Below are positions 7,260 through 34,790 of a stretch of DNA of 64,000 nucleotides, one piece after another. The stretch spans positions 1 to 64,000 of the forward strand of contig JAIRPL010000051.1 of assembly GCA_031256995.1 (NCBI GenBank), written 5' to 3'. A program made the translations under genes and the position numbers. The DNA is from Puniceicoccales bacterium (GTDB lineage Bacteria > Verrucomicrobiota > Verrucomicrobiia > Opitutales > UBA953). The notes beneath the pieces are model-generated. The model did not search any database and was not told the origin of the DNA. It saw only the letters and a program-made list of their open reading frames with translations. Numbering within the stretch: the stretch's first letter is position 1; the number at the start of each line of letters is the position of its first letter.

Positions 7260-7716
7260 GACGGTTCGGGGCGCGGGCGTCCGCCCGGCGCAAGCCGGGA
7301 GGAAAGTCCGGGCACCACAGGGCAGGATTCCGCGTGAAAACGTGGGCGCCGGAGGTCAATGGCCGGCGACGGACAGTGCCACAGAAAACAAACCACCGGG
7401 GCCTCGCGGTCCCGGCCAGGGTGAAAAGGTGGGGTAAGAGCCCACCGCGACTTCCGGCAACGGGGTCGGCATGGCAAACCCAATCCGGTGCAAGACCAAA
7501 TAGGGAAGCGGGCGGCCCGTCCATGCTTCCGGGTTGGGTCGCATCGCCTGCGGGCAAAGCGTGGTTTTCGCCACGCTTGGAGGAATGGGGGCTTTCGTTC
7601 AAGGATCCCTTGTTTCGTTCGCGGGCGGAGCGTGGCTTTTGCCACGTTAGAGGAATGGGCGCCACCCTTGCCGCAAGGAAGGGCACAGAACCCGGCTTAT
7701 AGCGCCCCGGACCGTC
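7260..7716 (+). ncRNA. rnpB: RNase P RNA (class A), with a duplicated P18-like module
   Basis: The catalytic RNA of RNase P, which removes 5' leaders from tRNA precursors. Conserved blocks seen: GAGGAAAGTCCGGGC (7300-7314), ACAGTGCCACAGAAAA (about 7373-7388), GTGAAAAGGTGGGGTAAGAG (about 7421-7440), GCAAGACCAAATAGGG (7490-7505) and ACAGAACCCGGCTTATAG (7685-7702). Bases 7260-7274 pair with 7702-7716 over 15 bp with one G-U, giving helix P1 and fixing both ends. A short T run follows. The hairpin GCGTGG..CCACG plus GAGGAATGGG, expected once as P18 and J18/2, occurs twice (7559-7592 and 7630-7662), so the RNA is longer than a typical class A molecule. Confidence 0.93.
7559..7662 (+). repeat. Direct repeat of the P18-J18/2 segment inside rnpB
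   Basis: Copy A at 7559-7592 and copy B at 7630-7662 share a GCGTGG-TTT-GCCACG hairpin followed by GAGGAATGGG, with a few substitutions that keep the stem paired and a 1-nt length difference. They are 71 nt apart. Copy B is followed by the stem CCCTTGCCGCAAGG and the P4 strand, as expected for the true P18. The 37 nt between the copies contain the palindrome CAAGG-ATC-CCTTG (about 7601-7613). The 13-mer CTTGGAGGAATGG of copy A (7576-7588) also occurs at 34743-34755. Confidence 0.8.
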
Positions 7717-34693: not shown

Positions 34694-34790
34694 CCCTGCC
34701 GCACGCCCTCCCCAGCCCCCGCGCGGCCTTCCGGTTTTCGATCTTGGAGGAATGGCCGCCCTGGGGAGGGGGTGGCGGCGGATGAGGCGG

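Follow-up and report, generated by a model that had tools for sequence, protein, structure and literature searches.

A second, degenerate copy of the P18-J18/2 module in the RNase P RNA gene of a Puniceicoccales bacterium

The rnpB gene and its repeated module

RNase P RNA is an essential tRNA-trimming ribozyme with a conserved core. The window, as we call the whole stretch of 64,000 nucleotides analysed here, carries one gene for this RNA, rnpB, whose features are listed in Table 1. Its match to the class A model RF00010 spans the whole model (1-367) with 220.4 bits, against a gathering score of 100, a threshold at which rnpB is the only Rfam match in the window. A covariance model search of the 2.43 Mb genome likewise returned this gene as the single RF00010 match. 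The source is a single draft genome, 89.6% complete and in 76 contigs, and rnpB sits inside a contig of 69.7 kb.

Table 1. Coordinates of rnpB and of the elements in its 3' part (positions in the window).
Feature	Position	Strand	Description
rnpB, bacterial class A RNase P RNA	7265-7715	+	451 nt; RF00010 220.4 bits, model 1-367
H1 5' strand (CGCC)	7545-7548	+	same strand in relatives; predicted to pair with 7624-7627 (probability at least 0.99)
Extra segment in H1 loop	7549-7623	+	stem extension 7549-7555/7617-7623, pseudo-P18, pseudo-J18/2 and filler; insertion in R1 alignment; predicted fold
P18, copy 1	7557-7578	+	9-bp stem, UUUC loop; predicted folds; near-identical to copy 2
J18/2-P2', copy 1 (GGAGGAATGGGGGC)	7579-7592	+	GGA for the AGA of relatives; G-G mismatch in P2'
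Filler between copies	7593-7616	+	similarity to P19 region not significant (7593-7620 alignment, p=0.27)
H1 3' strand (GGCG)	7624-7627	+	directly before copy 2; pairs with 7545-7548
P18, copy 2, canonical	7629-7648	+	8-bp stem, UUUU loop; R1 and RF00010 use its J18/2
J18/2-P2', copy 2, canonical (AGAGGAATGGGCGCC)	7649-7663	+	RF00010 alignment; AGA invariant
P19 hairpin	7664-7684	+	usual place and size; folds as in relatives

The earlier note had described the gene as otherwise intact, which agrees with the full-length match and with the paired inner P1 helix. The core elements GAGGAAAGUCC, ACAGAA, J18/2 (in copy 2) and ACAGAACCCGGCUUA are present, and the P4 strands and the AGA..AAUG of J18/2, by which a conserved core is recognised, are in place. 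On direct reading, one P4 pair is G-C in the window and A-U in congeners, a compensatory change which suggests that the gene is under selection. The RNA would be made at a length of 451 nt.

The same note had reported that the P18-J18/2 module occurs twice in rnpB, and both copies were recovered, about 70 nt apart. Their cores (7550-7592 and 7621-7662) are identical at 36 of the 42 aligned bases, with one gap. The best self-match within the gene scored 16, while 200 dinucleotide-preserving shuffles gave a mean of 9.7, a standard deviation of 1.2 and a maximum of 13.5; in the 29 further rnpB sequences that were tested, no self-match scored above 14. The stems pair at 7557-7565/7570-7578 in copy 1 and at 7629-7636/7641-7648 in copy 2, and the differences between them (G-C against G-U, U-G against C-G) preserve pairing, as had been noticed before. 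The usual arrangement of one P18 and one J18/2, which is not strictly defining for class A, is broken by a degenerate extra copy at 7557-7592. This copy is an addition, and the canonical part of the class A RNA is not removed.

With regard to the loops, those of P18 are U-rich tetraloops in both copies (7566-7569 and 7637-7640), and most congeners have GNRA at this place; the GNRA loop of H1, a neighbouring hairpin, is interrupted in the window. Because of these two features, the usual contact of the P18 loop with P8 may be altered in this RNA.

Placement within the H1 hairpin and the copy probably used by the core

Between P15 and P18, the rnpB genes of the order recurrently carry an extra small hairpin, named H1 in this analysis, which in the family typically reads GCAYCGCC-GNRA-GGCG. 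It was seen in L005, L006, L007 and other relatives, and the RF00010 alignment of the window assigns no separate helix to it. As both H1 strands survive in the window, at 7545-7548 and 7624-7627, the extra segment of about 70 nt sits in the H1 loop. The covariance model R1, built from the 3' modules of 22 relatives, aligns 7532-7699 with 49.4 bits (E 9e-14), placing 73 inserted nt within the H1 loop and taking copy 2 (7629-7663) as P18, J18/2 and P2', with H1, P18, J18/2 and P19 all retained around the insertion. Energy folding predicts a single stem of 11-12 bp, 7544-7555 with 7617-7628, that encloses copy 1. The composite of the H1 domain, P18 and P19, with J18/2 and P2' of copy 2 held open, is predicted at -68.8 kcal/mol against a sum of about -49.5 kcal/mol for separately folded local pieces, both being energies that ignore pseudoknots and tertiary contacts. 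The fold with the native filler is barely better than with shuffled filler, 11% of the shuffled versions reaching an energy as low. Selected masking of the spare J18/2 was considered and gained no support, as 68% of the shuffled fillers pair the spare J18/2 at least equally. Unrelated sequence has lengthened H1 in L087 of G049 and in L011 of G047, two further genomes of the order, and so its tip appears to tolerate growth as a site of expansion.

Several lines of evidence distinguish the two copies. The AGA of J18/2 was found in all 49 rnpB sequences checked, copy 2 of the window included, whereas copy 1 reads GGA and has thus lost the invariant first A. The P2' strand of copy 2, GGGCGCC, pairs fully with the 5' strand; that of copy 1, GGGGGC, has one G-G mismatch on direct reading. 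Furthermore, the RF00010 alignment takes copy 2 for J18/2 and P2', and P19 adjoins copy 2 downstream, in its usual place. Both covariance models, RF00010 and R1, and the AGA test spoke against copy 1 as the canonical one, and that reading was rejected.

A scenario in which both copies function, P2' and J18/2 being swapped between copy 1 and copy 2 to give two conformers, could account for the retention in copy 1 of the hairpin, GAGGAATGG and five of the six P2' pairs, and for stems that stay paired in both copies through differences of the G-C/G-U type. We consider it very unlikely, given that copy 1 violates the invariant AGA and is mismatched with P2, and that both covariance models pick copy 2. 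There is a slim chance that the window holds a natural two-state RNase P RNA with alternative P2'/J18/2 strands, at a stage where duplication is still giving rise to a new helix. The evidence points instead to copy 2 as the functional copy. Copy 1 is most likely a duplicate that has decayed inside a lengthened H1, since it has GGA for AGA and a mismatched P2', and since the Rfam alignment and the position of P19 favour copy 2. This spare copy is most likely not involved in catalysis and would represent a peripheral expansion.

Relatives and wider searches

Of 57 genomes from the genus, family and order of the source, which was itself counted, 52 yielded RF00010 matches. Full-length rnpB genes of relatives measure 325-425 nt, compared with 451 nt in the window, and the 3' module, which starts at the P15 side and runs to the P4 3' strand, spans 81-114 nt among the approximately 155 order matches listed and 168 nt in the window. 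A second P18-J18/2 copy was present in none of the rnpB genes of relatives examined; the extra segment was found neither in the seven congeners with a detected rnpB nor, by pattern, in other genomes of the order. The earlier note had also held that this segment normally occurs once, and the sequences of relatives that were read do carry one J18/2. The second hairpin of the relatives is H1, which the window keeps as well, so that the two hairpins do not correspond to distinct known helices present in all relatives, and the duplication stands. The alignment to the class A model and the comparison with relatives, proposed by the same note, yielded copy 2 as canonical and a gene longer than those of its relatives.

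Pattern searches covered a wider range of genomes. Among 373 genomes of the order, two J18/2 motifs upstream of a P4 3' strand were matched in the window and at one site in G010, which lies outside rnpB in a genome whose rnpB is single-copy. A stricter pattern that requires AGA in both copies, and that also misses the window itself with its GGA in copy 1, matched none of 384 genomes of the class. In a scan of GTDB r220 contigs with the first copy fixed as GAGGAATG and a gap of 34-64, a pattern that other forms would escape, 20 matches were returned, none of which was a P18-J18/2 duplication on inspection; in the 14 of them with an rnpB above the Rfam cut-off, the first GAGGAATG did not follow a second P18 but was a chance occurrence upstream of the P15-P17 3' side. 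No P18-J18/2 duplication was described in the open-access literature searched.

Shortened rnpB matches in genomes of the family were considered as insertions and rejected, all of them being at contig ends. In several genomes of a sister genus (L090-L093, L096 and L100), the contigs end inside rnpB, which shortens the gene in the assembly. Such breaks within rnpB of several relatives, and the 76 contigs of the draft, would fit an assembly artefact, in which the repeat is a chimeric or falsely duplicated stretch. We give this only a small chance, because the copies differ at 6 of the 42 aligned positions and by a gap, unlike a duplication made by an assembler, and the repeat is below ordinary short-read length and lies well within its contig.

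Origin of the extra copy and comparison with known systems

The similarity of the copies reaches upstream into H1, giving 71-nt units at 7543-7613 and 7614-7684 whose downstream ends are poorly conserved. The offset of 70-71 nt, the same orientation and the shared H1 edges suggest a tandem duplication. Of the two origins proposed in the earlier note, this one gained support, while the dispersed repeat lost ground. The exact duplicated unit is uncertain, since 7593-7620 has no significant similarity to P19 and may be either much diverged or filler. The duplication looks recent, because the P18 stems of congeners differ from both copies in the window, which match each other.

We regard it as probable that a lineage-specific tandem duplication left the downstream copy in the core and the upstream copy absorbed in H1, decayed and non-catalytic. 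In such a course of events, this species' lineage would have undergone a tandem duplication of about 70 nt, comprising part of H1, P18, J18/2 and P2', the 3' strand of P2. Of the two copies, the downstream one would have stayed in the ribozyme core and the upstream one would have ended up at the tip of a lengthened H1, in which the two H1 copies pair outer strand with outer strand and inner with inner. The resulting joint stem of 11-12 bp would surround the spare P18 and the spare J18/2, and the spare copy, having lost core-type bases, would be peripheral and neutral.

Replication template switching with new filler, in place of a simple tandem duplication, would lead to an identical final structure and could explain a filler without a match to P19; template switching is reported to create RNA hairpins (PMC8794818). 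The direct orientation, the near-constant offset and the matching H1 edges are, however, those expected from tandem duplication, and we judge template switching very unlikely.

A search of the source genome with 7545-7675 gave short partial matches only, the best being a gapped 26-base match on contig C4 (E 0.002), so that the further genomic copies of the repeat sought by the earlier note did not emerge. Nor does the 13-mer that recurs at 34743, which that note linked to a dispersed repeat, exceed chance: with up to two mismatches, it has 3 matches where 2.0 are expected, 39 of 100 shuffles reach 3, and the flanks at 34743 have no evident resemblance to rnpB. An inserted dispersed repeat that resembles P18-J18/2 by chance, to which the 13-mer and the partial match on C4 could be attributed, is thus extremely unlikely in the face of these results and of J18/2 being a universal rnpB motif, which makes rnpB itself the likely source.

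The duplication is a rare and probably harmless example of the growth of a catalytic RNA. Models of RNase P RNA history assume growth by added segments, the origin of which is rarely visible; here the addition is still recognisable as a copy of its neighbour, and the core-type bases of the spare have already been lost. The known mechanism of RNase P is unchanged by this case, whose function is ordinary and whose visible source of expansion is unusual. It offers a single natural instance in which to test how duplicated segments contribute to the growth of helices in a functional ribozyme.

On the best reading, the case joins the helix expansions already described for RNase P RNA and is known from one draft genome. 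The gene resembles other class A RNAs (RF00010) in its full-length match, conserved core elements and helix order, and differs from them in its length and in the P15-P18 segment of about 70 nt with a second P18-J18/2. Expansion segments at the periphery, among them P18 and P18.0, are described in the accretion model of RNase P RNA (PMC12974513). Like P18.0, the window's addition is peripheral, lies beside P18 and leaves the conserved core undisturbed; the underlying structure is intact, as in an expansion segment, and the addition is not shared by a lineage of genomes. P18.0, in contrast, is a helix established across a large lineage, and a tertiary contact has been described for it, whereas the addition described here, from one genome, is visibly copied from the neighbouring module. 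CPR bacteria have rnpB genes with large helix extensions (PMC8172020), which are likewise helix elongations in metagenome-derived genes, although the CPR example concerns an extended P15 and ours an H1 elongated by a duplicate. In vitro, an RNA can take on a different secondary structure as a result of duplication (PMC6711949); the sequence of duplication followed by structural change is the same, in a laboratory aptamer there and in a natural ribozyme gene here.
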